Of a stretch of 55,565 nt of DNA, positions 6,756 through 45,322 are shown in pieces. Numbering within the stretch: position 1 is the first letter of the stretch; every line of letters begins with the position of its first letter. The notes beneath the pieces are model-generated. The model was not told the DNA's origin. It worked only from the letters and a program-made list of their open reading frames with translations, and did not search any database. The translations under genes were made by a program, and so were the position numbers. Source of the DNA: a virus; IMG/VR virus record IMGVR_UViG_3300045412_000201, positions 1 through 55,565 of that record; one strand, given 5' to 3'.

Positions 6756-6763
6756 AGGTCAAC

Positions 6764-29521: not shown

Positions 29522-30532
29522 ATGTTCATCATTGTAGAAGGCCCAGACGGCTCAGGCAAAAGCTCACTTGTCGACGCGCTCTTGGACGAGGCGTCGGTCA
29601 AGTACCCAGAGCGCGAGGTCGTGCACTACCACATGGGCAAGCCAGAGGAAGAGTCTCGCTCGTGGGTGCTGAACCAGTGGGCCGCGTCGGTCGAAAATGT
29701 CAACTGGACGGACGGCTACGTCGTCATCGCAGACAGGTGGCACTGGGGCGAGGTGACGTACGCGCCGCTCAAGCGCCCGCACACGTGCTCAGACGAGTAC
29801 GGCCTGCTCGGGGTCGGCGGCTGGCGGCTTGTCGAGCTGATGCTGCTGTCGCGCGGCGCCGTGCAGTTCGCCTTGATGCAGCCTCCAGGCGTTCTAGCGC
29901 GCCGCGTCGAAGCGCGCGGCGACGGCTTCGTCGAGGTCGGCGAGCTCGCGCGGATACACGCGCTGTACATGAGCGGGATCGCGAAAGCGGCTCGCGTCGA
30001 GGTGCTGACGCCTGACCCAGACGACATGAGCGCGCTGCCTGCGCTGGCAGAGCGCATGCTCGCGATTGCGCGCGAGCGTGACTACCTCGCGAGAGCGGTC
30101 GCTCAGTTCCCGATGTACATCGGCTCACCGCGGCCTCGCGTGCTGCTAGTCGGTGACAAGCGAAACGACCCCAGCGGGCCGATCTTGCCCTTCTACCCCG
30201 CCAAAGGCAACTCTGGCGACTACCTGTTGTCTAACCTGCCAGACCCGTTTTGGAAGTCCGTCGGGATCGTCAACGGAACTGAGCTGTGCAGCTCGATGCT
30301 CGGCACGCTTTGGGTCGTCCTCGGCAGGCCGCCAGTCGTCGCTCTCGGGCGCATGGCCGAAAAAAGCATAGCAGGCCTCTGCGACGAGATACCACGAAGC
30401 CACGTCAGCGTGGTCCCGCACCCGCAGTATGTCCGCAGGTTTCACCACCACGACGGGCAGGAGTACGGTCGCGCGATCGAGAGGCTTTCGTGGGGGGGAG
30501 AAGAGGAGAATGACAAGTGGATACTAAGGTAG
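29522..30532 (+). CDS. Deoxynucleoside monophosphate kinase fused to a uracil-DNA-glycosylase-like domain
   Basis: 336 residues. Residues 1-195 are a thymidylate-kinase-type P-loop domain: IIVEGPDGSGKSS at the N-terminus, a DRWHWGEVTY substrate motif near residue 71, and a LID-like Arg region (ARRVEARGDG). Residues about 205-336 look like a UDG-superfamily fold: LLVGDKRNDP as motif 1, PFYPAKGNSGDYL, VVALGRMAEKSI, and VVPHPQYVRRFHHH as a motif-2-like His loop. The kinase would phosphorylate dTMP or a modified dNMP. The second domain could excise or sense uracil or a modified base. The fusion and the overlap with the thymidylate-synthase-fold gene tie it to nucleotide modification. The kinase call is firm and the UDG call moderate. 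Confidence 0.75.
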   Translation: MFIIVEGPDGSGKSSLVDALLDEASVKYPEREVVHYHMGKPEEESRSWVLNQWAASVENVNWTDGYVVIADRWHWGEVTYAPLKRPHTCSDEYGLLGVGGWRLVELMLLSRGAVQFALMQPPGVLARRVEARGDGFVEVGELARIHALYMSGIAKAARVEVLTPDPDDMSALPALAERMLAIARERDYLARAVAQFPMYIGSPRPRVLLVGDKRNDPSGPILPFYPAKGNSGDYLLSNLPDPFWKSVGIVNGTELCSSMLGTLWVVLGRPPVVALGRMAEKSIAGLCDEIPRSHVSVVPHPQYVRRFHHHDGQEYGRAIERLSWGGEEENDKWILR

Positions 30533-31374
30533 TCTCGATCCAAGACGGAGTCAACGGCTACGTCGACCTCGTGAGGCACGTCCTCGTGCATGGTGAGAAG
30601 GCGGCGCCACGCGGCATGCAGACCCGCGAGATAGAAGACGCCGTCATCTACATCGACGACGTGTACAACACGCTGCCTGTCGGCGTCGGCCGCAACGTCG
30701 TCGCAGGCATCGGCGCAGTCGAGGCGTGCCAGCTGCTCGGCGGCGTGTCGCGCCCAGAGACCGTCATCGCCATCGGGCCTCAGTTCGCGAACTACACCGA
30801 AGACGACGGGCAGTTCCACGGGTCGTACGGGACACGCACAGACGGCCAATACTCGGTCATGATCGACCGCCTCAAGAAAGACCCGGAGTCGCGGCAGGCG
30901 GTAGTCACGATCTGGGACCCAGAGCGAGACATGCTCGAGAAGAAGCGCGACTACCCGTGCACGATCCTGCACCAGTTCCGCGTCCGCAAGAACAGGCTCA
31001 ACATGAGCGTGTACATGCGCTCGAACGACGTCTGGCTCGGAGCCGCGTATGACTTCTTCCAGTTCACACGCGTGCAGATCGCGGTCGCGTCTATCCTCGG
31101 AGTCGAGCCGGGGACCTACGGCCACCACGTCGGTTCGTTGCATGTCTACGAGGCGGACTTCGCCGCCGCGGAAAATCTGGCCTACACGAAAGAGCCCGCT
31201 AAGCCAGTCCCGGTCCTCGTCGGCTCGTCATGGAGCGCGGTCCGAGCGCGGGCCGTCCGGTGCCTCGACGCCGCGCACGACGCCGCCGTGTTCGACGCGC
31301 TTCCGGCCGAAGACAAGTGGTACGCGTCGGCCATGCGCAGCGCGATCGCAAAAAACGCGGCAAATGCGAGCTGA
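30517..31374 (+). CDS. Thymidylate-synthase-fold enzyme with Asn-to-Asp change; predicted dCMP hydroxymethylase or methylase
   Basis: 285 residues from GTG 30517, AGGAG upstream. Family landmarks are present: PRGMQTREI (residues 31-39), catalytic Cys148 in DYPCTILHQF, phosphate-binding Arg168 and Asp171 in MRSNDVWLG, and His209/Tyr211 in SLHVY. The residue matching E. coli ThyA Asn177, which pairs with the uracil ring, is Asp179 (GAAYDFFQF). Asp at this position is the known mark of dCMP-specific members such as T4 dCMP hydroxymethylase. So the predicted reaction is CH2-THF-dependent hydroxymethylation or methylation of dCMP rather than dTMP synthesis. An active thymidylate synthase is less likely. 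Genes for dNMP kinase and dCMP deaminase overlap it on both sides. Confidence 0.85.
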   Translation: MDTKVVSIQDGVNGYVDLVRHVLVHGEKAAPRGMQTREIEDAVIYIDDVYNTLPVGVGRNVVAGIGAVEACQLLGGVSRPETVIAIGPQFANYTEDDGQFHGSYGTRTDGQYSVMIDRLKKDPESRQAVVTIWDPERDMLEKKRDYPCTILHQFRVRKNRLNMSVYMRSNDVWLGAAYDFFQFTRVQIAVASILGVEPGTYGHHVGSLHVYEADFAAAENLAYTKEPAKPVPVLVGSSWSAVRARAVRCLDAAHDAAVFDALPAEDKWYASAMRSAIAKNAANAS

Positions 31375-31849
31375 CCGCCCCTCGTGGGACGACACGTGGC
31401 TCGCGGTGGCTCGCGCCGTGGCGCGGCGGTCTCGCTGCTCACGGGCGCGGGTCGGAGCCGCCGTCGTCTCTCGCAACCAGCGCATCTGCGCGACTGGGTA
31501 CAACGGGCCGGCCGCGACGTGGCCTGAAGGCGGCGAGTGCGGGCTGTGGTGCCCGCGAGCGAGGGGAGAGGCCCCGCTCGACAACGTGTACGACGCGTGC
31601 CCGGCGATCCACGCGGAGGCCAACGCGCTGCTGTACGTCGACAGGTCGCAGGTCGAAGGCGGGACGCTGTACGTCACGAGCGCGGTGTGCATGCAGTGCG
31701 CGAAGCTGGTCTCGAACTCCGGAGTAGCGCGCGTCGTCATGGTCGTCCGCGGGTCAGACACGCACCGCAACCCGCACGAGGTGGTCGCGTACCTCGAGAA
31801 GTGCGGGATGCGAGTCAGCGCCGTGCCTGAGAGAGATTCCGATGGCTGA
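31364..31849 (+). CDS. dCMP deaminase family protein
   Basis: 161 residues, ATG 31364, overlapping the previous gene by 11 bases. It shows the cytidine/dCMP deaminase zinc site: AIHAEANAL (His ligand and catalytic Glu) and AVCMQCAKLV (two Cys ligands; the usual Pro before the first Cys is Val). An early Arg/Cys-rich segment (RRSRCSRARVGAAVV) and GYNGP agree with dCMP deaminases. It would convert dCMP to dUMP. Beside a predicted dCMP-modifying enzyme it could trim unmodified dCMP or supply dUMP for host ThyA/ThyX. Confidence 0.85.
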   Translation: MRADRPSWDDTWLAVARAVARRSRCSRARVGAAVVSRNQRICATGYNGPAATWPEGGECGLWCPRARGEAPLDNVYDACPAIHAEANALLYVDRSQVEGGTLYVTSAVCMQCAKLVSNSGVARVVMVVRGSDTHRNPHEVVAYLEKCGMRVSAVPERDSDG

Positions 31850-33665
31850 CCTGTCGGGCGTAGAGCTTTCGCTCGTCGACTCGGCCGAGAAGGCGTCGCA
31901 GTTCATCGCGTGGCTGAGCGAGCGCCGGCCGCACGGCGCGATCGCGGTCGACACAGAGACCGGAGAGCTGCCAGGCGCTCCAAGAGAGCACGCGCTGTCG
32001 CCGTGGCACGGCCGGTTGCGCCTCGTGCAGGTCGGTGACGCCCAGCGAGGCTGGGCGATCCCGTGGCAGGAGTGGTCAGGCGTGTTCTACGAGGCGATGG
32101 ACAAGTTCGACGGGCCGGTCGTGTGCCACAACATCGCGTTCGAGGCTCGCTGGTTCGACGTGCAGTCGCGGTGGAGCCTGCCGTGGGGGCGTGCGCACGA
32201 CACGATGATCATGGCGCACATCATCGACCCCCTCGGGTCAGGCGCTCTCAAGCGCCTCGCGGCGCTGCACGTCGACGGGCGCGCGGTCGCGCTGCAAGAC
32301 ACGCTCGACGTCGAGCTGGCTAAGAACGGCTGGACTTGGGGCACCGTCCCGGTCGGCTTCTCGCCGTATTGGTCCTACGGCGCGCTCGACACGGTCTTGA
32401 CGATGCGCCTCTGGGAGATGTTCTACGAAAAATGCGGCCCAGGCAAGCAATACAGCCGCGCGTACGAGCTCGAGATGGCGGCGCGCAAGATCGTGACACG
32501 CATGGAGATCAACGGAGCGCGCGTCGACCTAGAGTACTCGAAGAAGAAGTTTGACGAGCTGACCGCGTACACGTCGTCGGTCAAAGAGTGGGCGAAAGCT
32601 AGGTACGCCGGCGTGTCGATCACCAGCAACCAGCAGCTCGTCCGGTTGTTCGAGGACCTCGGCGCCGAGATCACCGAGTTCACGCCGACGGGGCAGAAGT
32701 CGTGCACGAAAGACCAGCTTCAGCTGCTCAAGATCAACGGGGCTGAAGAGGTGTCGAACCTCGCCGACACGGTCCTCAAGCAACGCAAGGCCGACAAGCT
32801 CGCGAACACGTACTTCTCGAACTTCATCAACGACAACGTCGACGGCTTCGTCCACCCGTCGGTCAAGACGCTCGGTGCGCGCACGAGCCGCATGTCGATC
32901 CAGAATCCCGCGCTTCAGACGCTGCCGAAAGGCGACGACGTCGTGCGCCGCGCGTTCTTGCCCAAAGACGACGACCACGTGATTGTCACGTCGGACCTCG
33001 ACCAGGTCGAGTTCCGCATGTTCGCCAGCATGTCGAACGACCCCAACCTCGTCGCGCTGTTCAGCCGCGCGGACGCGACCGGCTCAGATCCGTTCACCGA
33101 GATCGGCCGTGAGATCTACAAAGACCCGACGATGCAGAAGTCAGACAAGCGCCGCGCGCTCATCAAGGGCACGGTCTACGGGCGGCTGTACGGCGCCGGT
33201 GTCGCGAAGCAGGCGCTGACGGCCGGAGTCGCCGAGCCGCAGATGCGTGTCGTGTCAGACGCGTTCGACGGCCGGTACCCAGGAATGGTCGAGTTCCAGC
33301 GCAAGATCGAAGACGCGGGGATGCGCCGTGTCCGCGAAGAGGGGCAAGGCTACGTCTACACGTGGACTGGCCGCCGCCTGCCGTGCGACGAAGACCGCGT
33401 GTACACGCTGGTCAACTACTTGATCCAGGGAGGCGCGGCAGAGGTGTTCAAGGCCAACCTCGTCAAGCTCGACCAAGCCGACCTCACCGAGCTGCTCATC
33501 GTCCCCGTGCACGACGAGATCGTGCTCAACGCGCCGCGCGGCGACGTCCAAGAGATCATGCGCACCGTCAAAGAGTGCATGACGACCACCGACGGCTGGA
33601 ACGTGCCGCTGACCGCCGGGATAGACGGCCCACTCGAGACGTGGGGAGACAAGTACAAGCGGTGA
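31842..33665 (+). CDS. Family A DNA polymerase with 3'-5' exonuclease
   Basis: 607 residues, ATG 31842. The exonuclease domain has AVDTETG (motif I), VCHNIAFEARWFD (II) and YWSYGALDTVL (III). The polymerase domain has motif A TSDLDQVEFRM, motif B RRALIKGTVYGRLYG and motif C VPVHDEIVL. Motif A reads DLDQVEFR instead of the common DYSQIELR. The motif B aromatic residue is Tyr, like T7 DNA polymerase and unlike the Phe of E. coli Pol I, which predicts weak discrimination against dideoxynucleotides. It is the probable replicative polymerase and would have to read and incorporate any modified dCTP. Confidence 0.92.
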   Translation: MADLSGVELSLVDSAEKASQFIAWLSERRPHGAIAVDTETGELPGAPREHALSPWHGRLRLVQVGDAQRGWAIPWQEWSGVFYEAMDKFDGPVVCHNIAFEARWFDVQSRWSLPWGRAHDTMIMAHIIDPLGSGALKRLAALHVDGRAVALQDTLDVELAKNGWTWGTVPVGFSPYWSYGALDTVLTMRLWEMFYEKCGPGKQYSRAYELEMAARKIVTRMEINGARVDLEYSKKKFDELTAYTSSVKEWAKARYAGVSITSNQQLVRLFEDLGAEITEFTPTGQKSCTKDQLQLLKINGAEEVSNLADTVLKQRKADKLANTYFSNFINDNVDGFVHPSVKTLGARTSRMSIQNPALQTLPKGDDVVRRAFLPKDDDHVIVTSDLDQVEFRMFASMSNDPNLVALFSRADATGSDPFTEIGREIYKDPTMQKSDKRRALIKGTVYGRLYGAGVAKQALTAGVAEPQMRVVSDAFDGRYPGMVEFQRKIEDAGMRRVREEGQGYVYTWTGRRLPCDEDRVYTLVNYLIQGGAAEVFKANLVKLDQADLTELLIVPVHDEIVLNAPRGDVQEIMRTVKECMTTTDGWNVPLTAGIDGPLETWGDKYKR

Positions 33666-33670
33666 GGCAG

Positions 33671-34132
33671 ATGAAAACAGTCATCGCCGTCGACCCGGGC
33701 AAGACGACGGGCCTCGCTGTCATCGCGTACTCTGGAGAGGCGCCGGTGCTCGTGTCCTCGAAAGAACTCGCGGCGTACCCGTTCGCGGCGGCGCTCAGCG
33801 ACGAGCTTCGCGCGGCGAGGGCGGCCGGCTCAGTCGTCGAGCTCGTGTGCGAGCGCTTCATCATCAACGCGCAGACGATCAAGAACTCGCAGGCTCCGTT
33901 CAGCCTCGAGCAGATCGGGATCATGAAGTACGTCGTGCACGCCGGCGGGTTCGACCCAGAGAGCATCCACTTCCAGTCGCCGTCAGACGCTAAAAAGCTC
34001 TTCACGAACGACGCGCTCAAGCGGCTCGGCTTCTGGCACACCGGCGGCGGCGGACACGCGCTCGACGCGATGCGCCACGGCCTGCTGCGACTCGCGAAGA
34101 CAGGCTGGGTGCCGAGAGTGCTGCTCAAGTAG
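33671..34132 (+). CDS. RuvC-like Holliday junction resolvase
   Basis: 153 residues, ATG 33671 with GTGAGGC upstream, five bases after the polymerase stop. It has the RNase H fold acidic set of RuvC-like nucleases: AVDPGKTTGLAV, VVELVCERF (Glu) and a C-terminal GGHALDAMRHGL (Asp with His). It would cut branched replication and recombination intermediates before packaging. It forms one transcription unit with the polymerase and is followed by a regulatory gap. Confidence 0.85.
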   Translation: MKTVIAVDPGKTTGLAVIAYSGEAPVLVSSKELAAYPFAAALSDELRAARAAGSVVELVCERFIINAQTIKNSQAPFSLEQIGIMKYVVHAGGFDPESIHFQSPSDAKKLFTNDALKRLGFWHTGGGGHALDAMRHGLLRLAKTGWVPRVLLK

Positions 34133-34140
34133 GCGCTGTG

Positions 34141-34189
34141 TGTACTAAGAAAAAATGTTGTTGGAGATCATCCAAATCCGCTTAGTACA
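34141..34189. promoter_or_regulatory. Nested inverted repeat upstream of helicase promoter
   Basis: TGTACTAAG (34141-34149) and CTTAGTACA (34181-34189) are perfect 9-bp inverted arms. Between them TTGGA and TCCAA (34161-34175) form an inner palindrome around GATC. The outer right arm abuts the extended -10 at 34190. The block is strikingly AT-rich for this genome, as expected of an operator or a protein-bound looping site. Confidence 0.65.
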
Positions 34190-34198
34190 TGGTACAGT
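34190..34198 (+). promoter_or_regulatory. Extended -10 promoter for helicase/recombination operon
   Basis: TGGTACAGT matches the recurrent motif and lies directly after the inverted repeat. Predicted start near 34205 leaves a leader of about 20 nt with GAGAG before TTG 34226. Confidence 0.65.
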
Positions 34199-34225
34199 AA
34201 CCGACAAAACGATCGAGAGACTAAG

Positions 34226-36028
34226 TTGACAGCACGAGTGGACATCGACTCCAGCAGCACCAGGCACATCCGCATCGAGGCGGACTGGCGCTACAAAGAG
34301 CTGTGCAAGAGCATCCCCGGAGCGGCGTGGTCGACGGCCGAGAAGGTCTGGAAGGTGCCGCTGAGCTGGTCGGCGTGCCTCGCGCTGCGGTCGACGTTTC
34401 GCGACGAGCTCGTGGTCGGCGACGCGCTCACCGCCTGGGCGAGCAGCGAGCGCGCGTCGCGAGTAGACCCGTCAAACGCGCTTCGCGACGTCGAGGGGAT
34501 CGAGGGCGACGACGACCTGTTTCCGCACCAGCGTGCCGGCGTCGAGTTTCTGCGCGTCGCCCGACGGGCTCTGCTCGCGGACGAGCCTGGCCTCGGCAAG
34601 ACCGCTCAGGCGATTCGCGCGCTCAAGGCCCTCAAGGGCTCCGGCGAGGAGGTGTTTCCGGCGCTCGTCGTCTGCCCGAACACCGTGAAGAAGAACTGGA
34701 AGCGCGAGTTCGCGCGCTGGTGGCCAGGCGTGAACGTCGAGGTCATCTCCGGCACGGCGACGCAACGCCGCAAGTCGTTCGAATCTGGCGCCGACGTGTA
34801 CGTCATCAACTGGGAGTCTCTGCGCACTCACTCGCGCCTCGCGCCGTACGGGTCGATCGCGCTCAAGCGCTGTGTCGCGATGGGAGGCCACGACGAGAGC
34901 GTGACAGAGAAGCAGTGCGAGGTCACGCCGCGCGAGCTCAACGGGATCGACTTCAAGGCCGTGGTCGCGGACGAGATACACCGGTCCAAAGACCCCAAGT
35001 CGAAGCAGACGCGCGCGCTGTGGGCCGCGACTGGCGACGCAGACGTGCGGTTTGCGCTGACGGGCACGCCGATCGCGAACGACGTAGTCGACCTGTGGCC
35101 GATCCTGCACTGGCTGTCGCCGGAGGAGTGGCCGAGCAAGACGCGCTGGATCGACCGCATGATCAACACGATGCTCAACGCGTTCGGCGGCATGATGGTC
35201 TTAGGCGTGAAGCCGCAGATGGAGCAAGAGTTCCACGCCGGGATCAACCCGCGGATGCGCCGCATGCTCAAGGCGAAGGTGCTGCACTGGCTGCCGCCGA
35301 TCATCAACGAGCGCCGCGACGTCGAGATGTCGTCGAAGCAGGCGAAAGCCTACGCGCAGATGCGCGACCTCATGATCGCCGAGCTCGAGAGCGGCGCGGC
35401 GTTGATGGCGACAAGCCCGCTCACGCAGGTCACGCGGCTGCTCCAGTTGGCGAGCTCGTACGCGGACATTGCCGCAGACACCAGCACCGGCGAGATGCGC
35501 GCCACGCTCGCCGAGCCGTCGTGCAAGGTCGACGCTGTCATGGACGACATGAAGAACGGCGACTTTGGCAGCGACTCGGTCGCTGTCTGCGCCGTGTCGC
35601 GGCAGCTCATCGACTTGCTCAGCGCGGCGATGACGAAGGCCGGCATCGAGCACGGCCGCATCACTGGCGCGCAGAGCGAAGACGAGCGGCAAGAGGCCAT
35701 CGACGACTTCCAGGCAGGCAGGACCAAGTGGATACTGTTCACCGCTCAGGCCGGTGGTGTCGGCGTGACGCTGACGGCTGCTCGCAGGCTGATCATGCTT
35801 CAGCGCCCGTGGTCGTTGGTCGACCACAAGCAGGCGCTCGACCGCGTGCACCGGATCGGCTCGGAAGTGCACGACAGCGTCATCATCACGGACTACGTGA
35901 CCGAAGGCACGGTCGAAGAGCGCGTGATCCAGGTACTCGACACGAAGGCCGACAACTTCGAGCAGATCGTGCGCGACAAAGACCAACTACTCAACCTGCT
36001 CAAAGACGACAAGGAAGGCAGACTATGA
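34226..36028 (+). CDS. SNF2-type DNA helicase/ATPase
   Basis: 600 residues, TTG 34226 with GAGAGA upstream. An N-terminal 75-residue domain (HIRIEADWRYKEL, KVWKVPLSW) resembles the small DNA-binding domain fused to phage SNF2 proteins. The ATPase has LLADEPGLGKTAQ (Walker A), VVADEIHRSKD (motif II, a DEIH box) and ALTGTPIAND (III). The C-terminal lobe has AQAGGVGVTLTAARR and QALDRVHRIGS (V-VI). It is likely to serve as a replicative or recombination-linked translocase. It overlaps the exonuclease gene by ATGA, so the two are coupled. Confidence 0.9.
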   Translation: MTARVDIDSSSTRHIRIEADWRYKELCKSIPGAAWSTAEKVWKVPLSWSACLALRSTFRDELVVGDALTAWASSERASRVDPSNALRDVEGIEGDDDLFPHQRAGVEFLRVARRALLADEPGLGKTAQAIRALKALKGSGEEVFPALVVCPNTVKKNWKREFARWWPGVNVEVISGTATQRRKSFESGADVYVINWESLRTHSRLAPYGSIALKRCVAMGGHDESVTEKQCEVTPRELNGIDFKAVVADEIHRSKDPKSKQTRALWAATGDADVRFALTGTPIANDVVDLWPILHWLSPEEWPSKTRWIDRMINTMLNAFGGMMVLGVKPQMEQEFHAGINPRMRRMLKAKVLHWLPPIINERRDVEMSSKQAKAYAQMRDLMIAELESGAALMATSPLTQVTRLLQLASSYADIAADTSTGEMRATLAEPSCKVDAVMDDMKNGDFGSDSVAVCAVSRQLIDLLSAAMTKAGIEHGRITGAQSEDERQEAIDDFQAGRTKWILFTAQAGGVGVTLTAARRLIMLQRPWSLVDHKQALDRVHRIGSEVHDSVIITDYVTEGTVEERVIQVLDTKADNFEQIVRDKDQLLNLLKDDKEGRL

Positions 36029-36951
36029 CGGACGTGCTCAAGGTCTCGAACAGCGAGCTCCAGACATTCAAAGACTGTCGCCGCCGCTGGTGGCTGGCGT
36101 ACTTCCGCCGGCTGCAGCCCCGGGAAAAAGTCATGACTGGCCCGCTCGCGCTCGGCACGCGCATCCACGCGGCCTTCGAACAGTACTACGCGAGCGGCGT
36201 CCCGCTGCTCGACGCGCACGCAGAGCTGGTCGAACGTGACAAAGAGCTTCTGGTCGAAAGCTTCCGTGACACGACCGACCTGCAGTCTGAGGCCGAACTT
36301 GGTCGGATCATGCTCGAAGGATACCTCCAGTGGGTCGAAGAGAACGGCATCGACGCCGAGCTTGAGTTCATCTCGAGCGAGGAAGTAGTCAGCGCGCCGC
36401 TTCTCGAGGGGCAAGTCGAGCTGCAAGGCAAGCTCGACATGCGCGTGCGGCGCAAGGTAGACGGAGTGCGCATGTTCAGAGACTTCAAGACCGTCGGCGG
36501 CTCATTCGCCGACTTCACGAGCATGGCTCACATGAACGAGCAAGTGCTGACCTACATGCTGCTCGAGGCGCAAAAGAAAGACGAGATTGAGCGGTGCGAC
36601 GGAGGCATCTTCACGATGCTGCGCAAGGTCAAGCGCACCGCGAACGCGCGCCCTCCTTTCTACGAGCAGATCGAAGTCAGGCACAACATCTTTAGCCTGC
36701 GCTCGTTCTGGAACAGGATCCACGGCACGATAACCGACCTCCTCCGAGTCCGCAAGGGGCTCGAAGACGGCGGCGATCACACGATGCTTGCGTACCCGCG
36801 GCCGAGCCGCGACTGCAAGTGGAAGTGCCAGTTTTTCGCCGTATGCCCGCTACTCGACGACGGAAGCGCCGCCGAACAGGCAATCAGCGAAATGTACGTG
36901 GTCGACGACCCGTACAGTTATTACAAACCAGACAACAAAGGAAACGAGTAA
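36025..36951 (+). CDS. RecB/Cas4-like PD-(D/E)XK exonuclease with Fe-S cluster
   Basis: 308 residues, ATG 36025. Nuclease core: LGTRIHAAFEQYY helix, then GKLDMRV and MFRDFKTV forming the D-(DFK) metal site, then a QVLTYMLL helix carrying the RecB-type Gln. Cys18 in FKDCRRRWW together with three Cys in CKWKCQFFAVC near the C-terminus match the four-Cys [4Fe-4S] arrangement of Cas4/AddB nucleases. It probably resects DNA ends for phage recombination with the helicase and the Sak4-like ATPase that follow. Confidence 0.88.
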   Translation: MTDVLKVSNSELQTFKDCRRRWWLAYFRRLQPREKVMTGPLALGTRIHAAFEQYYASGVPLLDAHAELVERDKELLVESFRDTTDLQSEAELGRIMLEGYLQWVEENGIDAELEFISSEEVVSAPLLEGQVELQGKLDMRVRRKVDGVRMFRDFKTVGGSFADFTSMAHMNEQVLTYMLLEAQKKDEIERCDGGIFTMLRKVKRTANARPPFYEQIEVRHNIFSLRSFWNRIHGTITDLLRVRKGLEDGGDHTMLAYPRPSRDCKWKCQFFAVCPLLDDGSAAEQAISEMYVVDDPYSYYKPDNKGNE

Positions 36952-36954
36952 CGC

Positions 36955-37740
36955 ATGACACAAGTACAACGCTCTCTGACACTTATGGTGTACGGAGAAT
37001 CAAAGGTCGGCAAGTCGACGTTCGCGGTCACAGCGCCGTACCCGCGGCTGATGCTCGACGTTGAGGGCGGCCACCGCTTCCTCCCGATCACGGTCAAGTA
37101 TTGGGACCCGCTGCGGGAAGAGCCGCCGGTAGCCGACGGGACGTGGGACACCTGCGTCGTCAACGTGACGAAGTACGACACCATGATGAAGGCGTACCAG
37201 TGGCTCCAGCTCGGACGCCACCAGTTCAAGTCACTGATCATCGACTCGGTCTCTGAGCTGCAAGTCAAGTGCGTGGACAACATCGCCGGGACAAACCAGA
37301 TGCAGATGCAGCAGTGGGGCGAGCTTTTGAGGCACATGGGAGCGCTCTTGCGTGACCTGCGCGACCTCACGATGCACCCGACCGCGCCGCTCGAGGCAGT
37401 CGTGCTCACCGCCATGTCTCGCACCGGGCAAGACGGGCGCGCTCGGCCGTACCTCCAAGGCCAGCTCGCGATCCAAGCGCCGTACTTCTACGACGTCCTC
37501 GGCGCGATCACCGTCGAAGAGTTCCCGCACCCAGACCCCACCCAGCCGAACTACAAGGCGCGCCGCATGTACGTCGAACGGACGAACAAGTACGAGGCAG
37601 GCGAGCGCGTCCAAGGACGGCTAGGTAAGATCGTCGAGCAGCAAGATCTTGGGATCGAACGCATGCTCGAGATAGTGTTCGGCCCACGGCCAGAACAAAA
37701 GCAAAGCAAGACAACCAACACAGAGAAAGCGAGTAAATAG
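36955..37740 (+). CDS. Sak4-like RecA-fold recombination ATPase
   Basis: 261 residues, ATG 36955, AAGGAAAC upstream. Walker A is MVYGESKVGKST near residues 11-20, and a hydrophobic strand ending in Asp, LIIDSV, is the Walker B. DVEGG after the first strand and LTAMSRTGQDGR further on follow the RecA-like ATPase layout of Sak4 single-strand annealing proteins. The C-terminus is charged and unstructured (QKQSKTTNTEKASK). It lies between the nuclease and an SSB-like gene, the usual context for Sak4. Confidence 0.8.
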   Translation: MTQVQRSLTLMVYGESKVGKSTFAVTAPYPRLMLDVEGGHRFLPITVKYWDPLREEPPVADGTWDTCVVNVTKYDTMMKAYQWLQLGRHQFKSLIIDSVSELQVKCVDNIAGTNQMQMQQWGELLRHMGALLRDLRDLTMHPTAPLEAVVLTAMSRTGQDGRARPYLQGQLAIQAPYFYDVLGAITVEEFPHPDPTQPNYKARRMYVERTNKYEAGERVQGRLGKIVEQQDLGIERMLEIVFGPRPEQKQSKTTNTEKASK

Positions 37741-37742
37741 CA

Positions 37743-38285
37743 ATGTCAACACTCAACTGGGGCGACCTGATCAAGGACGCAGCCGAGACTGGCGGGTACG
37801 ACCCGCTGCCAGCCGGCGACTACGACTTCCAAGTCGTCGAAGCAACGGCCAAGGTGACGCAGACGGGAAAGACCATGTTCGCCATCAAGGCGCAGGTCCA
37901 GACCGGTGCGCACGCAAAGCGGCTCGTCTGGGACAACCTGGTCGTCTCGACGGACAACCCCAACGCGCTCGGCATGTTCTTCAAGAAGATGGCCGCGCTG
38001 GGGCTCCCCCGCGAGTACTTCACATCAAACCCGACCAACGCGCAGATCGAGGCCGCACTCAAGGGTCGCACCTTCCGCGCGGCCGTCGGCACGCGAACCT
38101 GGCAGGGCCAGACGAAGAACGAGATCAAGAGCTACTACTCGGTCTCGTCGATGGCGGCAGCATCACCGGCACCGGCACCGGCACCGGCACCGGCACCGGC
38201 ACCGGCACCGGCACCGGCACCGGCACCGGCACCGGCACCGGCACCGGCAGCAGACCCGAACACGCCCCCCAAGGCGCCGTTCTGA
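37743..38285 (+). CDS. SSB-like (DUF669-type) single-strand binding protein with Pro-Ala tail
   Basis: 180 residues, ATG 37743. Residues 1-138 (DPLPAGDYDFQVVEA, KTMFAIKAQVQTG, LVWDNLVVSTDNP, FFKKMAALGLP, TFRAAVGTRTWQG) are a beta-barrel of the DUF669 type, found beside Sak4 and nuclease genes and thought to coat single-stranded DNA. Then come 14 Pro-Ala dipeptides and a short tail, NTPPKAPF, which may be the protein-docking tip. Two hairpins follow the stop, so this ends the recombination operon. Confidence 0.8.
   Translation: MSTLNWGDLIKDAAETGGYDPLPAGDYDFQVVEATAKVTQTGKTMFAIKAQVQTGAHAKRLVWDNLVVSTDNPNALGMFFKKMAALGLPREYFTSNPTNAQIEAALKGRTFRAAVGTRTWQGQTKNEIKSYYSVSSMAAASPAPAPAPAPAPAPAPAPAPAPAPAPAPAADPNTPPKAPF
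38166..38249 (+). repeat. Fourteen perfect CCGGCA hexanucleotide repeats
   Basis: An uninterrupted run of 14 CCGGCA units encodes the (Pro-Ala)14 linker of the SSB-like protein. Perfect identity at the DNA level suggests recent slippage expansion. Copy number should vary without changing frame. Confidence 0.95.
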
Positions 38286-38392: not shown

Positions 38393-39640
38393 ATGAAAGT
38401 CGCGGTATTCGAGCCAGAGCCAGGAGTCAAGGGACCCACCGCGTGGGGATTCCGGCTTCGGTACGGGTTCCAGCAGCTTGGGCATAGCTGCGATGTCGTG
38501 TCGTTCACGAAGAGTGGCAAGGCTCGAACGTCGTGGGGCCAGCCTCGCCCGGGCGGGCGGTGGTGGAGCGAGGCGCCAGACGTCGTCGTGAAGACCGCGC
38601 ACCTCGTCGAGACGTTCGACAAGTACGACATGGTCGTCTTGCCAGAGATCAAGGTGCCGCTGCACGACAAGCAGGCGATCAAGAAAGGCGAAGGCGCGTT
38701 GCCAGAGTACGTAGACGCTCTGCTCCGCACTCGGACACGCTGGACCACGGCGCTCCACGGCTCGTTTTACCCGGAGAAAGACATCCCGTTCGTCGGCAAG
38801 CTGCTCGAGTCGCCGTCGCGAGGAAGCAAGCTCGTGACGATGAGCGACGAGTCCGCGAGGCACAGCAACGACATGTTCGCGAAGATGGAGTGGATCAAAG
38901 GCCCGATGCCTTACATCCCGAAGTTCGAGGTCGACGCGCCGATCACAGACAGCCGCGTCGTCGGCACGTCAGGCAGGTTCATCTACAACAAGGGACAGCC
39001 GCTCGTCGCGCTCGCCGGCGCGTTCTTGCCAGAAGACGTCACGGTGGAGATCTGGGGATCGTGCTCGGTCGGCCTCGGGCCGTCGCCGACGTACATCGTG
39101 TACGAGCTTTTGAAAGAACACTTCAAGGCGCAAGCCGTGAGGTACGCGAAGAATGTCAACCCGGAGAAGTACAACGGAAGCATGGACGGGAACATCGTCA
39201 CGCCGTACCCGTGGGACGCGCGTGTGGCCGGCAGAGCGCTCATCCGCTACCTCGGCAACTACACCGACTCGGCGGCGATCGCGGCGCGCTTCCGCGTGCA
39301 CATGAACCTCACCGCGCACGCGTTCGCGCGGGGCCTGGTCGAGTACTCGTCGCTCGAGGCCGCCGACGCAGGCGCTCTGTGCATCGTCCCAGGCCACCTG
39401 TCAGACCCAGCGTTCCGCATGATGGTGCTCGACTGGTTCACGAAGTCTCCGACGCAGTCGCGCCTCGTGCAAGACGAGGGCCTCGCGTTGATCAAGAGGA
39501 TCGCCGACGCGTTCTCGACGTGCCTCGAGATCCCAGACAACCAGCGGGTCGAGATCGCGCGCCACAACCGCGAGGTCTTGCGCACGCGCAACGACCCGCG
39601 AAAGACGGCTGAAGTCATGATCGAGAGCGCATTCTCGTGA
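38393..39640 (+). CDS. GT-B glycosyltransferase, resembling T4 alpha-glucosyltransferase in layout
   Basis: 415 residues, ATG 38393, GAGGAGAG upstream. N-terminal Rossmann half: MKVAVFEPEPG, FGFQQLGHSC-like helix-strand, YDMVVLPEI, WTTALHGSF, KLVTMSDES. C-terminal half: GTSGRFIYNKGQ, VEIWGS, and a donor-site segment GLVEYSSLEAADAGALCIVP. In order and shape these parallel T4 AGT (YQHDHS, FSHSDN, GRTTTWKG, SLEYTHLELGACGTIPV), recalled from memory. GT4-type enzymes share much of this. Substrate could be modified cytosine in DNA, or a virion or surface glycan. It is the first gene of a five-gene coupled cassette with sugar-activation enzymes. Confidence 0.75.
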   Translation: MKVAVFEPEPGVKGPTAWGFRLRYGFQQLGHSCDVVSFTKSGKARTSWGQPRPGGRWWSEAPDVVVKTAHLVETFDKYDMVVLPEIKVPLHDKQAIKKGEGALPEYVDALLRTRTRWTTALHGSFYPEKDIPFVGKLLESPSRGSKLVTMSDESARHSNDMFAKMEWIKGPMPYIPKFEVDAPITDSRVVGTSGRFIYNKGQPLVALAGAFLPEDVTVEIWGSCSVGLGPSPTYIVYELLKEHFKAQAVRYAKNVNPEKYNGSMDGNIVTPYPWDARVAGRALIRYLGNYTDSAAIAARFRVHMNLTAHAFARGLVEYSSLEAADAGALCIVPGHLSDPAFRMMVLDWFTKSPTQSRLVQDEGLALIKRIADAFSTCLEIPDNQRVEIARHNREVLRTRNDPRKTAEVMIESAFS

Positions 39641-40428
39641 TCGCCAACAGCGGCCTGTCCGGTGCGGAGGTCGTTGACAACGACGCGGTGACGGTCATCA
39701 AGCGAGGCGGGATCGTCGAGAAGACGATCGGGCAGGGCCGTTGGATCCAAGAGCACGCGTCTCCTGCGCTCCCGATGGTGCTCGAGCTGACGAGCGACGG
39801 CTACGTCATGGAGCGGCTCGCGCACGTCGACTACGCCGAGGTCAAGGCCGAAGAGGTAGTCGGCCTGCTGCGCAGGCACGTCTGGAGCAGGCCTGCCGAT
39901 GTCCCCGCGAGAGACGAGACGTACGAGCTTTTGCGCGGCAAGATGTCCGACAACATCGGCAGGTGCTGGCTGTCTTTCAGCTCCGAGCTTGTCGCGGCCG
40001 TGCTGTTCGCCGCCGAGTCAGCGGCCCGTGCCGCGCTCGCCGGGGCGGCGGCTCTCACTCACGGAGACGCGACGGCCGAGAACGTGATGCGCAGGCGCGG
40101 CTACGGCTCGGTGCTGATCGACCCGATCCCAGCGACGATCACGGTCCCTGACGCTCCGTGCGTCGACGTCGGCAAGATGCTGCAGAGCGCGAACGGGTGG
40201 GAGGCCGCGAAGTACGGCACGGGAGGCAAGGCATACTCGATCGCCGACGTGCGCGCTGCGGTCGACGACGACTCGTTGTTCTCTGGCGGCCAGGCCTGGG
40301 CGGTCGTCCACGTCGTGCGTGCGCTCCCGTATGTCGTGCGCCAGGCTCCAAGCGCGCTAGATCGAGTCGCGGAAGTGCTCGTCAACACGCTCAAGACAGG
40401 AGGTTTCTACGATGAAGTGGTGCTCTGA
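39637..40428 (+). CDS. APH-like small-molecule (sugar or choline type) kinase
   Basis: 263 residues, GTG 39637 overlapping the previous stop (GTGA). Kinase landmarks: Lys29 in GGIVEKTI, the Brenner motif HGDATAENV with Asp144 and Asn149, and Asp162 in VLIDPI replacing the DFG Asp. The size and minimal N-lobe fit aminoglycoside phosphotransferase-like enzymes, which phosphorylate small alcohols (sugars, choline, homoserine). Next to a HAD phosphatase and a nucleotidyltransferase it probably makes a sugar or alcohol phosphate for activation. Antibiotic resistance is unlikely from context. Confidence 0.7.
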   Translation: MIANSGLSGAEVVDNDAVTVIKRGGIVEKTIGQGRWIQEHASPALPMVLELTSDGYVMERLAHVDYAEVKAEEVVGLLRRHVWSRPADVPARDETYELLRGKMSDNIGRCWLSFSSELVAAVLFAAESAARAALAGAAALTHGDATAENVMRRRGYGSVLIDPIPATITVPDAPCVDVGKMLQSANGWEAAKYGTGGKAYSIADVRAAVDDDSLFSGGQAWAVVHVVRALPYVVRQAPSALDRVAEVLVNTLKTGGFYDEVVL

Positions 40429-40927
40429 CATCGACGGCGTCCTCGTGAACTCGAGGCACCTCGTGCGCAAGGCGTACAAGAGTGTCGGTGTCGACATGCC
40501 AGACGAGGCCTGGGGCCACCCGTGGCAGATGTGGCTTCCGTCTGTGACTGGCTCGCTCGAGAGCGCGAGGAAGGCGCACAGCGAGAAGACGCTCGTGTAC
40601 GTCGACGTGATCAGAGCCGGCGCAGCGCTCGAGAACAAGCTGCCGTACGCAGACATCTTGCTGTCGCTCGAGGCGATGTTTCCCGGAGACGTCGCATACG
40701 TGACAGGCGCCGCGAAAGACGCGGCAGAGGCGGTGCTCGAGGCGCTGAGGCTCACGCCGAGCGCGCTTCTCGCAAGCAGCGTGTCGACGGCCGAGCGCAC
40801 CGCGATCCTCAGGGGAGTCGCGGCGGAGGGAGTGTACATCGACGACAGGATCGACGGGCAGGCGCCAGCGAGAGAGGCCGGCTGGAAGTTCGTGTGGGCG
40901 CGCCAGGAGTGGCCGTGGACGCGGTGA
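40412..40927 (+). CDS. HAD-superfamily phosphatase
   Basis: 171 residues, ATG 40412, overlapping the kinase gene by 17 bases. Motif I is SDIDGVLVNS with nucleophile Asp6 and acid Asp8. A Thr in AYVTGAAKD serves as motif II. VYIDDRIDG near residue 141 is motif IV with paired Asp. The cap is small and helical. Between a kinase and a nucleotidyltransferase it suggests a kinase-phosphatase-nucleotidyltransferase order like that of activated-heptose pathways. Alternatives are a 5'-nucleotidase or a polynucleotide 3'-phosphatase. Confidence 0.7.
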   Translation: MKWCSDIDGVLVNSRHLVRKAYKSVGVDMPDEAWGHPWQMWLPSVTGSLESARKAHSEKTLVYVDVIRAGAALENKLPYADILLSLEAMFPGDVAYVTGAAKDAAEAVLEALRLTPSALLASSVSTAERTAILRGVAAEGVYIDDRIDGQAPAREAGWKFVWARQEWPWTR

Positions 40928-41676
40928 TCCTCGCCGCGGGGCGCGGCCAGCGCATGCTCGGCTACTCTATGCCGTTCTTCAAGCCGCTGCTCGAGGTCAA
41001 CGGGATCACGCTGCTCGCGTACGCGGCCGAGTACGCCGCGGCGGCCGGCGCCGAGCAGACGGTCGTGGTCGCGTCGCCGCACAACGTCACGCAGGTGCAC
41101 AAGGTGCTTGAGCCGTACTCGTCGTGGATCGAAGTCGTCGTGCAAGAAGACCCCTGCGGGCCCGGCCACGCGGCTCTTGTCGGCCTGAAACCACTTGAAA
41201 ACTCGAAGGCGGTGATGCTCTTGATGAGCGACAACATCATGGACCGCGAAAAAGTGGTCCGCATGGCCGTCAGCACAGAGATCGCGAAAGCGAACGCCGT
41301 CGGAGCGCGGACGGTCCCGAAGAGCCAGGCCGGGCGGTTCACGAGGATACGGTCGGCCTGGTCTGATCGAATCGCGCGAGAGCACGAGTACGAGTTCGCC
41401 GAAGGGACTGAACTGCGTGACGAAGACTTCGTCGACCCCCGGGCCGACGCGCCGCTGGCTCGAGTGTGGTGCGGGCCGGTGATCATGGACACGAAGCGCG
41501 CGATCGCCGTGCTGTCGCGCGAGTGGGACGGCCGCGGCTCGCAGGGCGCCGAGCTCAAGATCGGCCCGTACCTCACGGAGATACTGCGGTACCCGACGAG
41601 CTTGTTCGACGTGGACGCGATGGACGTCGGAGTCCCGTCGGCGTTCGAGGCAGCGACAGAAGCAACGGCTAGATGA
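40915..41676 (+). CDS. Sugar-1-phosphate nucleotidyltransferase
   Basis: 253 residues, GTG 40915 with GGAG six bases upstream, inside the end of the HAD gene. The signature is AVILAAGRGQRM (nucleotide loop), FFKPLLEVNG (Lys-Pro), VVVQEDPCGPGHAAL (base and sugar contacts) and LMSDNI (metal Asp). The layout matches RmlA/GlmU/UGP-type enzymes that make NDP-sugars. LicC-like choline-phosphate cytidylyltransferases are an alternative because an APH-like kinase is adjacent. It is expected to supply the donor for the flanking glycosyltransferases. Confidence 0.8.
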   Translation: MDAVILAAGRGQRMLGYSMPFFKPLLEVNGITLLAYAAEYAAAAGAEQTVVVASPHNVTQVHKVLEPYSSWIEVVVQEDPCGPGHAALVGLKPLENSKAVMLLMSDNIMDREKVVRMAVSTEIAKANAVGARTVPKSQAGRFTRIRSAWSDRIAREHEYEFAEGTELRDEDFVDPRADAPLARVWCGPVIMDTKRAIAVLSREWDGRGSQGAELKIGPYLTEILRYPTSLFDVDAMDVGVPSAFEAATEATAR

Positions 41677-42689
41677 AAGTCTTGATCACCGGCGCCAGTG
41701 CGCAACACTACTCGAGCGCCGTGGCTCAGCGGACATTGACGTACTCCGGCATGCTCGCGGAGGCGACTCAAGAGCTCGGGCACGAGGTCGTGCAGGTCGA
41801 GCCCGACCCAGCGTGGACGCACGGCGACCTCGCCGGGTACGGCAAAGTCTTCGCCGGCGTGCTGACGCCGACCAGCGTGTCGGCCAACGGCACATACGGC
41901 ACGCTCAACCTAGTCTCTCTGCTCAAAGACGACTCGCGACTCGCGCTGTTCGTCGACGCTCCAGAGCCAGGAAAGATCTTCGCCGGCCTGAGGTCGATCG
42001 AGCGAAAGCCAAAGCAGCTCTTCAAGCCGTTCTACTCGCGCAGGATCGGCTACACGCTCGCTGCGCAAGACGGCGCCATAAGCGCACGAGTCCTCGACGG
42101 CGCGCTGCACCTGCTGCACAAGCCTTGGCCAAAGACGGTCTGGCCGACACTGCCGTGGTACTCGAACCCGGCAGAGATCATCGGAGTGCGCGAGACGATG
42201 CGAGCGTCGCTCGTCGGGCTGTCTTTCGACTCGCTGCACGCGCGGCGACCAGGAGCAGACGCGCCGCGAGGAAAGAGAGCGCGCGCGTGGGGGATAGACG
42301 TGCCGTCGACGAAGTGGGCCTTGTCGCTGTCAAGGACGCTCGAGCTTCCGCACGGCGAGATCAAGGACAAGAAGTACGCCACCGACCTCGAGCTCGAAGA
42401 AAGGATCGGGTCTCTGCACGGAGTCATACTGGCCATACACGACGACAAGCGCCCTTGGTGGTCTCCGCTGTTCGTCAAGTCGATGCGCGCCGGCACTCCG
42501 ATAGTGACAGAGTGGCGGTACAGCCGCGAGGCCGGAGACGCGTGGTCTGTGCTCGCGGCGAGGGTCGAGCAGCTGAGCGAGCTCGACGCTTACGAGCTTT
42601 CGGCGCGCCAGTCGCGCCAATACTTAGATAAGATCCAGACGCGGGAAGAAGTACTGACAACACTGCGACAGGTGATCGACTCAAGATGA
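41673..42689 (+). CDS. GT-B-like glycosyltransferase, resembling T4 beta-glucosyltransferase in layout
   Basis: 338 residues, ATG 41673 (ATGA overlap). The N-terminal strand MKVLITGAS is followed by a helix and ELGHEVVQVEP, GYGKVFAGVLTP, then ALFVDAPEPGK, whose Asp lies where T4 BGT has its catalytic Asp100 (LFTDIRLPF). The C-terminal half has LHGVILAIHDDKRPWWSPLFVKSMRAG, shown here split as HGVILAIHDDK and WSPLFVKSMRAGTPIV, paralleling the BGT donor region (ALIIGDKNY, LRVWETMASDAVML). The comparison is from memory and by eye. Length (338 versus about 351) also agrees. Predicted role: transfer of a sugar to a modified DNA base. Confidence 0.65.
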   Translation: MKVLITGASAQHYSSAVAQRTLTYSGMLAEATQELGHEVVQVEPDPAWTHGDLAGYGKVFAGVLTPTSVSANGTYGTLNLVSLLKDDSRLALFVDAPEPGKIFAGLRSIERKPKQLFKPFYSRRIGYTLAAQDGAISARVLDGALHLLHKPWPKTVWPTLPWYSNPAEIIGVRETMRASLVGLSFDSLHARRPGADAPRGKRARAWGIDVPSTKWALSLSRTLELPHGEIKDKKYATDLELEERIGSLHGVILAIHDDKRPWWSPLFVKSMRAGTPIVTEWRYSREAGDAWSVLAARVEQLSELDAYELSARQSRQYLDKIQTREEVLTTLRQVIDSR

Positions 42690-43168
42690 CTGACAAGCTT
42701 TTCGGCAAGTGGCTCGAGGCCACGGCTCAGCTTCAGCAAAGCTGCTACGGCGTCGACTACTCTACCTTCCACGACGACGGCTCAGACTCGCTTCGAGCCG
42801 TCATCGAGTACCTGCGCTGGAACATGCTCGCGATCGACGACGAGCTCGCCGAGGTCCGCAGGGCGATCTCGTGGAAGCCCTGGCAGCGCGATGATCCGTA
42901 TGTCGACCGCAAAGAGGTCCTGAAAGAGTGCGTCGATGTCCTCCACTTCGTCGCAAACATCATCTGCGCCGTCGGCGGGACCGACGCCGAGTTGAACGAA
43001 GAGTACCTGGCGAAGATGCAGAAAAACGCAGACCGCCAGCAGAGAGGCTACCGCGTGCTCGATGCCGGGATGAAGTGCATCGTGTGCGCCCGTGCGCTCG
43101 ACGACTACGACACAGACAACTGCCGCGAGCCGCGGTGTCCTCACAGGAGCAGAGATGAAGCATGTTGA
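42686..43168 (+). CDS. MazG/all-alpha NTP pyrophosphohydrolase with C-terminal zinc knuckle
   Basis: 160 residues, ATG 42686 (ATGA overlap). The helical core carries the ExxE and ExxD metal motifs of the all-alpha NTP-PPase group: IDDELAEVRRAISWKPW and KECVDVLHFVANI, then EEYLAKMQKNADRQQRGY, closest to dimeric dUTPase/MazG-like phage proteins. The C-terminal 35 residues add CIVC, a single Cys and RCPH, a probable zinc knuckle. It would hydrolyse dUTP or dCTP. T4 uses a functionally similar dCTPase-dUTPase (unrelated sequence assumed) to keep unmodified cytosine out of its DNA. Confidence 0.78.
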   Translation: MTDKLFGKWLEATAQLQQSCYGVDYSTFHDDGSDSLRAVIEYLRWNMLAIDDELAEVRRAISWKPWQRDDPYVDRKEVLKECVDVLHFVANIICAVGGTDAELNEEYLAKMQKNADRQQRGYRVLDAGMKCIVCARALDDYDTDNCREPRCPHRSRDEAC

Positions 43169-44080: not shown

Positions 44081-45322
44081 GTGGCAAAGCACACGTTCAT
44101 TGACTGCAACGGCCTCGCTGGGTTCATGAGCTACGGGTTCGTGAAGTCAGGCATGGAGATGGTCGCGAGGACGGGGACACTGGACTTCGGCGCGCCGGTC
44201 GTCGAGGCGAACCGCGCGCGATTTGGCGCCTCGTGGGAAGGAAGCTTCGCGGACGACGTCGAAGAGTGGCCGAGGCGCAAGGCAGACGCAGTCGTCGGCT
44301 GCCCCCCGTGCTCGGGCTGGTCGACGTGGTCGTCTGTGCACCAGCGCGGCCCAGACTCGCCGGCGCACGAGCACACGCGAGCTTTCATGCGCTACGCCGG
44401 CGCGATCAAGCCCTCTGTCGTCGTGTTCGAGTGCGTCCAGCAGGCGTACTCAGACGGGCGTGAGGTCATGCTCAAGTACCGCGACATGGTCGAGGGCGTC
44501 TCGGGCAAGAAATACGACCTGCACCACGTGATGCACAACAACCTGCAGCTTGGCGGCTTCTCGTACAGGCCGCGGTACTTCTGGGTCGCTGTCCGGCGCG
44601 GGATGAAGTTCGGAGCCGAGGTCAACGAGCCGGCGAAGTTTCCGACCGTCATGGACGTCATCGGCGACCTCGAGAACCTGCCGCTGCAGTGGTCACCGCA
44701 GAAGATCAAAGGCAAGCCGTCTTCGTTCGTCAAGGCGCTGCGGTCGAGCAACTCGACGGTCGACGGCCACATCGGCGTCAGTGACGGCTCAAAGGCTAAG
44801 ATCGAAGACATCTTCGCGATCGTCGGCAACGGAGGGTGGAAGCCGAACGACATCCAGCAAGACGTGCTCAAAGAGGCCGTCCGGCTCAATGACAACAAGT
44901 TCCCGCAGTCGTGGCTCGGCTCAGAGAAGAACATCAGGCGGCGCAAGTTCCTCCTCGGCTACTCGCAGGCCGGGCGCTGGGACGGAGAGGCTCCGTGCCG
45001 CGTCTTGACAGGAGCCGCGCTGCAGCACGTCGTGCACCCGACGCAGCCGCGGTTGATCACGCACCGTGAGGCGGCGCGCATCCAGGGGCTGCCAGACGGG
45101 TGGAACATCGAGGAGACGCAAGACTACTCGATGATGAAGGCGACCTGGGGAAAGGCCGTCGCCGTGCAGGCAGGCGAGTGGATCGGCAAGCACGTCAACG
45201 CGTGCCTGAGCGGCGAGCAGAGCGGCCCGGCGGGGGAGAAGATCGGCGACCACGAGTGGATGCACCGCACCGACAAGGGCTTCAGCCGCCACTATGTCAA
45301 GCAGAAGATGGCCGGCAAATAA
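44081..45322 (+). CDS. DNA (cytosine-C5) methyltransferase
   Basis: 413 residues, GTG 44081. Motif I is HTFIDCNGLAGF (residues 4-15). Motif IV is GCPPCSGWST with catalytic Cys77. Motif VI is VVFECVQQ, where the usual ENV reads ECV (Glu117 kept). Motif VIII has R163 and R165 in YRPRYFWVAV. Motif IX-X is RLITHREAARIQGLPDGW and WGKAVAVQAGEWIG. The target recognition region lies at about 200-300. The first motif has Asn-Gly for the typical Ser/Gly-rich loop. No cognate restriction endonuclease is adjacent, so it is an orphan enzyme, either for protection or as the first step of base hypermodification. Confidence 0.88.
   Translation: MAKHTFIDCNGLAGFMSYGFVKSGMEMVARTGTLDFGAPVVEANRARFGASWEGSFADDVEEWPRRKADAVVGCPPCSGWSTWSSVHQRGPDSPAHEHTRAFMRYAGAIKPSVVVFECVQQAYSDGREVMLKYRDMVEGVSGKKYDLHHVMHNNLQLGGFSYRPRYFWVAVRRGMKFGAEVNEPAKFPTVMDVIGDLENLPLQWSPQKIKGKPSSFVKALRSSNSTVDGHIGVSDGSKAKIEDIFAIVGNGGWKPNDIQQDVLKEAVRLNDNKFPQSWLGSEKNIRRRKFLLGYSQAGRWDGEAPCRVLTGAALQHVVHPTQPRLITHREAARIQGLPDGWNIEETQDYSMMKATWGKAVAVQAGEWIGKHVNACLSGEQSGPAGEKIGDHEWMHRTDKGFSRHYVKQKMAGK

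Follow-up and report, generated by a model that had tools for sequence, protein, structure and literature searches.

The window, a 55,565-nucleotide stretch of viral DNA that covers positions 1 to 55,565 of IMG/VR virus record IMGVR_UViG_3300045412_000201, carries genes for nucleotide metabolism, replication and candidate sugar transfer on its plus strand (Table 1). Among them is an open reading frame of 285 amino acids with a GTG start, which encodes a protein of the thymidylate-synthase (TS) fold. At its 5' end it shares 16 bases with the end of the upstream kinase gene, and at its 3' end it runs into the dCMP deaminase gene, whose start was taken from the open reading frame.

Table 1 Features of the putative modification locus and its surroundings in the window
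Feature	Coordinates	Strand	Evidence or remarks
Nucleotide kinase with C-terminal UDG-like domain	29522..30532	+	Residues ~1-190 YorR/thymidylate-kinase fold; ~195-330 UDG-like
TS-fold protein, predicted dCMP 5-hydroxymethylase	30517..31374	+	Key residues C148 (nucleophile), E69, D145, T149, R126, S169, D179
dCMP deaminase	31364..31849	+	PF00383 E 4.7e-18; phrog_174 E 1e-36
Family A DNA polymerase (PolA)	31842..33665	+	PF00476 E 8e-53
Replication/recombination block: RuvC-like, SNF2-type helicase, PD-(D/E)XK exonuclease, Sak4, SSB-like	33662..38285	+	
Glycosyltransferase-like protein, 415 aa, first gene of exchangeable sugar cassette	38393..39640	+	Weak matches
APH-type kinase-like protein, candidate sugar kinase	39637..40428	+	PF01636 E 4.6e-4, just under cut-off
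HAD-like phosphatase candidate	40412..40927	+	Sub-threshold PF00702 E 0.04; N-terminus MKWCSDIDGVL
Sugar-nucleotidyltransferase-like protein (NTP_transf_3)	40912..41676	+	PF12804 E 7e-15
GT338, 338 aa, putative GT-B fold, candidate DNA (hmC) glycosyltransferase	41673..42689	+	F0 paralogue
All-alpha NTP pyrophosphatase, T4 gp56-like, predicted dCTPase/dUTPase	42686..43168	+	Profile match
C5-cytosine-methylase-like protein	44081..45322	+	PF00145 E 7e-20; PPC and Glu motifs intact
Pyrimidine dimer DNA glycosylase-like gene	45397-45909		Downstream of modification block
WhiB-family regulator	46654-47166		Downstream of modification block
Glycosyltransferase-2 domain with TPR-like repeats	47661-49430	-	phrog_13126

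Gene order and nucleotide-pool genes

The neighbourhood of the TS-fold gene is strongly conserved, with the kinase gene directly upstream at 75/75 loci that have room for it and the dCMP deaminase gene downstream at all 76 such loci. The order of the replication/recombination block is also unchanged in relatives. After the SSB gene come the sugar cassette, the 338-residue GT338, the pyrophosphatase, a DUF6378 gene, the C5-methylase-like gene, the pyrimidine-dimer glycosylase and WhiB.

The AlphaFold2 model of the kinase (pLDDT 91) matches YorR (Z 18.0) and thymidylate kinases (Z about 15) over residues ~1-190. Its C-terminal part has uracil-DNA-glycosylase-like motifs that are conserved across the family, and a weak match to the uracil-DNA-glycosylase domain PF03167 (10 of 26 members, best E 0.0068). 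This fusion occurs in full-length close-clade relatives of the kinase; the Gordonia phage kinases are shorter. We predict that the kinase phosphorylates hmdCMP, the role of gp1 in T4.

The pyrophosphatase aligns with T4 gp56 at an hhalign probability of 97.5 (E 7e-12), and both proteins match PF08761 above the cut-off; by homology, it is a predicted dCTPase of the gp56 kind, as in a T4-type pathway. In T4, gp56 clears dCTP, and the pathway further includes gp42, the gp1 kinase, a dCMP deaminase and the alpha- and beta-glucosyltransferases. Candidate counterparts can thus be named for the T4 steps: dCTPase, hydroxymethylase, nucleotide kinase, dCMP deaminase and glycosyltransferase. DHFR was not found in four relatives (DSL-LC01, GodonK, Forza and GMA2; the window record is itself a fragment), and Gordonia phage GMA2 encodes a ThyX of its own in addition. 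Both observations are consistent with an enzyme that yields THF, not dTMP.

Residues indicative of base, sugar and chemistry

The TS-fold protein matches Thymidylat_synt (PF00303, E 8.6e-25) and several PHROG thymidylate synthase families, and the catalytic Cys, Glu and Arg of that fold are present (C148, E69 and R168). Among PDB sequences it matches MilA, a CMP 5-hydroxymethylase, best (E 8.5e-24), with all thymidylate synthases ranking lower. Homologues from 80 IMG/VR loci, together with the window and the phage DSL-LC01, gave 58 distinct proteins with 60-100% identity to the one in the window, and D179, C148, T149, R168, S169, D171, H209, Y211, R126, E69 and D145 are invariant in all of them. 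The initial annotation had described a thymidylate-synthase fold with Asp179 in place of the uracil-reading Asn (GAAYDFFQF) and with C148, R168, D171, H209 and Y211 kept, and every one of these residues lies where it was placed. As Asp179 is identical in 58/58 distinct homologues, it is neither a sequencing error nor a chance replacement. In deposited records the relatives are mostly annotated as thymidylate synthase, and the same name is given to the enzymes of Gordonia phages GodonK, Phendrix, Forza and Sixama, which are of the Asp type too.

We compared these residues with E. coli ThyA, T4 gp42, SPO1, M6, phiW-14, MilA, the phage relatives and PaMx28, which is a member of the Xp12 genus (Pamexvirus) and served as a stand-in for the Xp12 enzyme; the residue rule that results is based on few characterised enzymes and established literature. 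D179 aligns with Asp179 of T4 gp42, as had been proposed, and with Asn177 of ThyA. At this position (177 in E. coli numbering) Asp is found in T4 gp42, MilA and PaMx28, and Asn in ThyA, SPO1, M6 and phiW-14. Immediately after the catalytic Cys, the window protein, T4 gp42 and MilA share a Thr; ThyA has His there, PaMx28 has Pro, and the SPO1, M6 and phiW-14 enzymes have Asn. A genome-phenome study gave positions 147 and 177 the highest scores for association with modified cytosine in phage DNA (PMC8670742). The pair Asp179 and Thr149 points to cytosine, not uracil, and supports the earlier expectation of a cytosine-type product instead of dTMP.

The preference of MilA for CMP has been traced to Ala176 and Lys133, where deoxyribose enzymes have Ser and Arg (PMC5175136). 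The window protein and its homologues have Ser169 and Arg126 at these positions (58/58), which predicts a deoxyribose substrate, not ribose. In T4 dCMP hydroxymethylase, Asp145 activates the attacking water and D145N abolishes activity; a role for Asp179 is also published (PMC6400193). Asp occupies the 145 position in T4 gp42, MilA, SPO1, M6, phiW-14 and all 58 homologues, and indeed in every known or inferred hydroxymethylase that we examined; E. coli ThyA has Leu there, and PaMx28 has Asn. Asp145 points to transfer of a hydroxymethyl and not a methyl group. Both 5-hydroxymethyl- and 5-methyl-dCMP had been allowed as products by the initial annotation; this comparison favours the former and speaks against the latter.

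Two further features were considered. Of the water network formed by Tyr96 and Ser94 in T4, Tyr104 is invariant here, and at the position that aligns near Ser94, 43 of the 58 proteins have Ala and 15 have Ser, in a stretch where the local alignment is unsure. Loss of Trp80 as a sign of hydroxymethylases was rejected, as T4 gp42 has Trp at the aligned place; it is also undercut by Gordonia phage enzymes that have Trp in the neighbouring column.

Phylogeny and distribution

In the tree, the window protein, DSL-LC01 and the IMG/VR relatives form one clade (support 98/99), and the nearest group, with moderate support (85/82), is made up of GodonK, Phendrix, Forza, Sixama and GMA2. T4 gp42, phiW-14, M6, ThyA, MilA and PaMx28 sit on long branches with unsure placement, and the window enzyme is not placed with T4 gp42. 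Class assignment by tree was not decisive, given these long branches and open forks; function is therefore assigned from residues and gene context. With the patterns used, no bacterial relatives were found among 84,980 species genomes, and because of this the enzyme family looks phage-borne. Several of the relatives can be cultured on Gordonia terrae; for GodonK, Phendrix, Forza and Sixama the strain is 3612.

Candidate glycosyltransferases and an exchangeable sugar cassette

GT338 had no match in Pfam or in a profile search of the PDB. AlphaFold2 modelled it with modest confidence (pLDDT 67.5), and a search with that model by Foldseek alone returned nothing below E 0.001. A second structural aligner listed 50 matches for this modest model, all of them glycosyltransferases, with SenB at the top (Z 12.0, rmsd 4.0, 266 aligned) and T4 beta-glucosyltransferase 1qkj also present (Z 10.0, rmsd 5.4, 270 aligned). 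No sequence relationship between the glycosyltransferases of the window and T4 beta-glucosyltransferase was detected by hhalign. All 12 phage records with GT338 also have the Asp-type enzyme, and among 14 records with close relatives of that enzyme only the two GMA2 records are without GT338.

The slot after the SSB gene, which lies between SSB and this second glycosyltransferase, is occupied in relatives either by a gene of F0, a family paralogous to GT338 (profile probability 100), or by the window-type set of 415-residue glycosyltransferase-like, APH-like, HAD-like and nucleotidyltransferase genes. F0 includes a DSL-LC01 gene annotated as a glycosyltransferase and genes of GodonK and Forza. 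The 415-residue gene, which is swapped for F0 at the same place in many relatives and is followed there by the APH-like kinase gene, weakly resembles glycosyltransferases: 3 of 12 family members match Glyco_trans_1_2 (best E 0.11), and a weak profile match links it to Gordonia phage GT4-like proteins (probability 81).

In DSL-LC01 the slot holds F0 and a UDP-galactopyranose mutase (PF03275 E 5e-30). The mutase gene lies between two glycosyltransferase genes, at 2323-3420 of stretch L084 (OQ999401.1, Actinomycetia phage DSL-LC01). The paper on this phage reads the mutase as acting on the host cell wall (PMC10611076), and a part in DNA glycosylation is an alternative to that published reading. 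A dCMP hydroxymethylase and a UDP-galactopyranose mutase also occur together in Agrobacterium phage Atu_ph04 (PMC6630229). From the place of these genes, their co-occurrence with the Asp-type enzyme and the fold of GT338, we infer that the sugars go onto DNA.

Other genes nearby

The C5-methylase-like protein keeps motif IV (PPCSGWS) and the motif VI Glu, and where an acidic residue normally follows the SAM motif, a conserved RTG seems to have taken its place. Its motifs are conserved across 20 sequences, and the gene is also found in GodonK and Forza, co-conserved with the predicted hydroxymethylase in the lines examined. Such a gene is odd beside hmC, as its usual reaction would be blocked if every cytosine were hydroxymethylated. 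Perhaps only part of the cytosine is replaced; alternatively, the protein may have host DNA as its target or catalyse another reaction. The minus-strand glycosyltransferase-2 gene stands near glycine-rich tail-fibre-like genes and is probably unrelated to DNA modification.

Discussion

Residues and gene context together make it very likely that the TS-fold protein is a phage dCMP 5-hydroxymethylase with 5-hydroxymethyl-dCMP as its product. In the route that we propose, Cys148 would attack C6 of dCMP, the cytosine ring being fitted by Asp179 and Thr149; Glu69 would help to open methylene-THF; and water activated by Asp145 would attack the exocyclic methylene, yielding 5-hydroxymethyl-dCMP. The upstream gene's kinase, together with a host enzyme, would convert this to hmdCTP, the gp56-like enzyme would eliminate dCTP, and PolA would incorporate hmC into DNA. 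Glycosyltransferases would then attach a sugar that the exchangeable cassette helps to make. We think it likely that the phage DNA is decorated with sugar. More tentatively, we suggest that hmC might bear sugars new to DNA, of a galactofuranose type in the DSL-LC01 line and of another type, activated by the kinase, phosphatase and nucleotidyltransferase, in the window line; the swaps of the cassette would perhaps track hosts evolving against one sugar.

A competing account concerns the last step only. In it the enzyme is again a dCMP hydroxymethylase, the hmC in the DNA stays bare, and the nearby glycosyltransferases modify virion proteins or cell-wall glycans. The glycosyltransferase-2 gene near the tail-fibre-like genes is probably of that kind, and the usual role of UDP-galactopyranose mutase is in cell-wall galactofuranose, as the DSL-LC01 paper also says (PMC10611076). 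However, the GT338 and F0 genes sit within the replication operon, between SSB and the dCTPase-like gene, they look GT-B-like with T4 beta-glucosyltransferase among the best matches, and GT338 is found only in phage records with an Asp-type enzyme. We regard DNA with bare hmC as rather unlikely.

It is very improbable that the enzyme is instead a dCMP 5-methylase, in which a hydride from THF would reduce the methylene and the phage DNA would carry 5-methylcytosine as in Xp12. In favour of this are the Asp at position 177 of the PaMx28 enzyme and work, cited in PMC8670742, in which a single N-to-D change turned true thymidylate synthases into a dCMP methylase. However, a 5-methylase of the Xp12 kind would be expected to have Asp177 without the water-activating Asp, along with an encoded DHFR, whereas D145 is present here and in hydroxymethylases, its place being taken by Asn in PaMx28 and by Leu in E. 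coli ThyA. DHFR is encoded by Pamexvirus phages (PMC9206674) but was not found in the four relatives searched, and a methyl group would offer no handle for the adjoining glycosyltransferases.

We give little credence to a thymidylate synthase or dUMP hydroxymethylase that simply tolerates Asp, even though databases name the relatives thymidylate synthase and the adjoining dCMP deaminase makes dUMP. The residues linked to uracil and typical of ThyA, His147 and Asn177, are Thr and Asp in 58/58 homologues, and the enzymes of the dUMP hydroxymethylase type in SPO1, M6 and phiW-14 have Asn at both positions. GMA2, moreover, has its own ThyX, and T4 likewise encodes dCMP deaminase alongside its dCMP hydroxymethylase. 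A ribonucleotide CMP hydroxymethylase like MilA, serving small-molecule or RNA modification, is hardly credible: MilA is the nearest sequence with a solved structure, but its Ala176 and Lys133 are replaced by Ser169 and Arg126 in 58/58, as in deoxyribose enzymes, and the gene sits in a replication operon.

The preferred reading, a dCMP hydroxymethylase feeding DNA modification, has parallels in T4. The window enzyme shares Cys148, Asp179, Thr149, Asp145 and Ser169 with gp42, and the window phage has a candidate counterpart for each step of the pathway, with homology demonstrated for gp56. The differences are that the enzyme has no close tree relationship to gp42, that the phage has PolA where T4 has a family B polymerase, that the kinase is fused to a UDG-like domain, and that the glycosyltransferases show no detectable sequence similarity to T4 beta-glucosyltransferase. 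MilA, from Streptomyces rimofaciens, shares the residues for cytosine and for water activation; Ser169 and Arg126 set the window enzyme apart, with deoxyribose as the predicted sugar.

Among phages, the Asp177-type thymidylate synthase homologues of the MetaGPA study (PMC8670742) follow the same residue rule, tied to cytosine-modified DNA. Their partner is a carbamoyltransferase, in contrast to the GT-B-like genes and sugar-activation cassette that accompany the enzyme in these actinophages. RB69, with arabinosyl-hmC (PMC6024577), and Shewanella phage Thanatos, with pentose-modified cytosine (PMC12838424), combine a dCMP hydroxymethylase with a glycosyltransferase of their own, as is predicted here, and in both, phage genes have been proposed to produce the activated sugar (PMC6024577, PMC12838424). 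The gene families differ, however, and DSL-LC01 has a UDP-galactopyranose mutase in the slot. Brevibacterium phage LuckyBarnes is another actinophage with a TS-fold gene beside glycosyltransferase genes (6456-8009 of stretch L145, MF668275.1, minus strand), announced as a predicted dCMP-hydroxymethylase. With Asn at each of the two base-reading positions and the hydroxylation Asp retained, the LuckyBarnes enzyme may be a dUMP hydroxymethylase; its glycosyltransferases do not match those of the window.

The kind of enzyme described here is already known, from T4 gp42 and the MetaGPA enzymes. In the literature searched, we found no paper on DNA modification in GodonK and no account of modified cytosine among these large actinophages; the TS-fold enzyme goes unmentioned in the paper on DSL-LC01 (PMC10611076). 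In the records and papers examined, these phages are annotated as thymidylate makers, without a link to modified DNA. If our reading is right, their cytosine would be replaced by a hydroxymethylated and probably sugar-coated base, by a T4-like route that the papers examined do not describe for this group. This would have consequences for phage resistance to restriction and CRISPR, and for the sequencing and digestion of phage DNA. Additionally, the swapped cassettes may be a source of new DNA glycosyltransferases.
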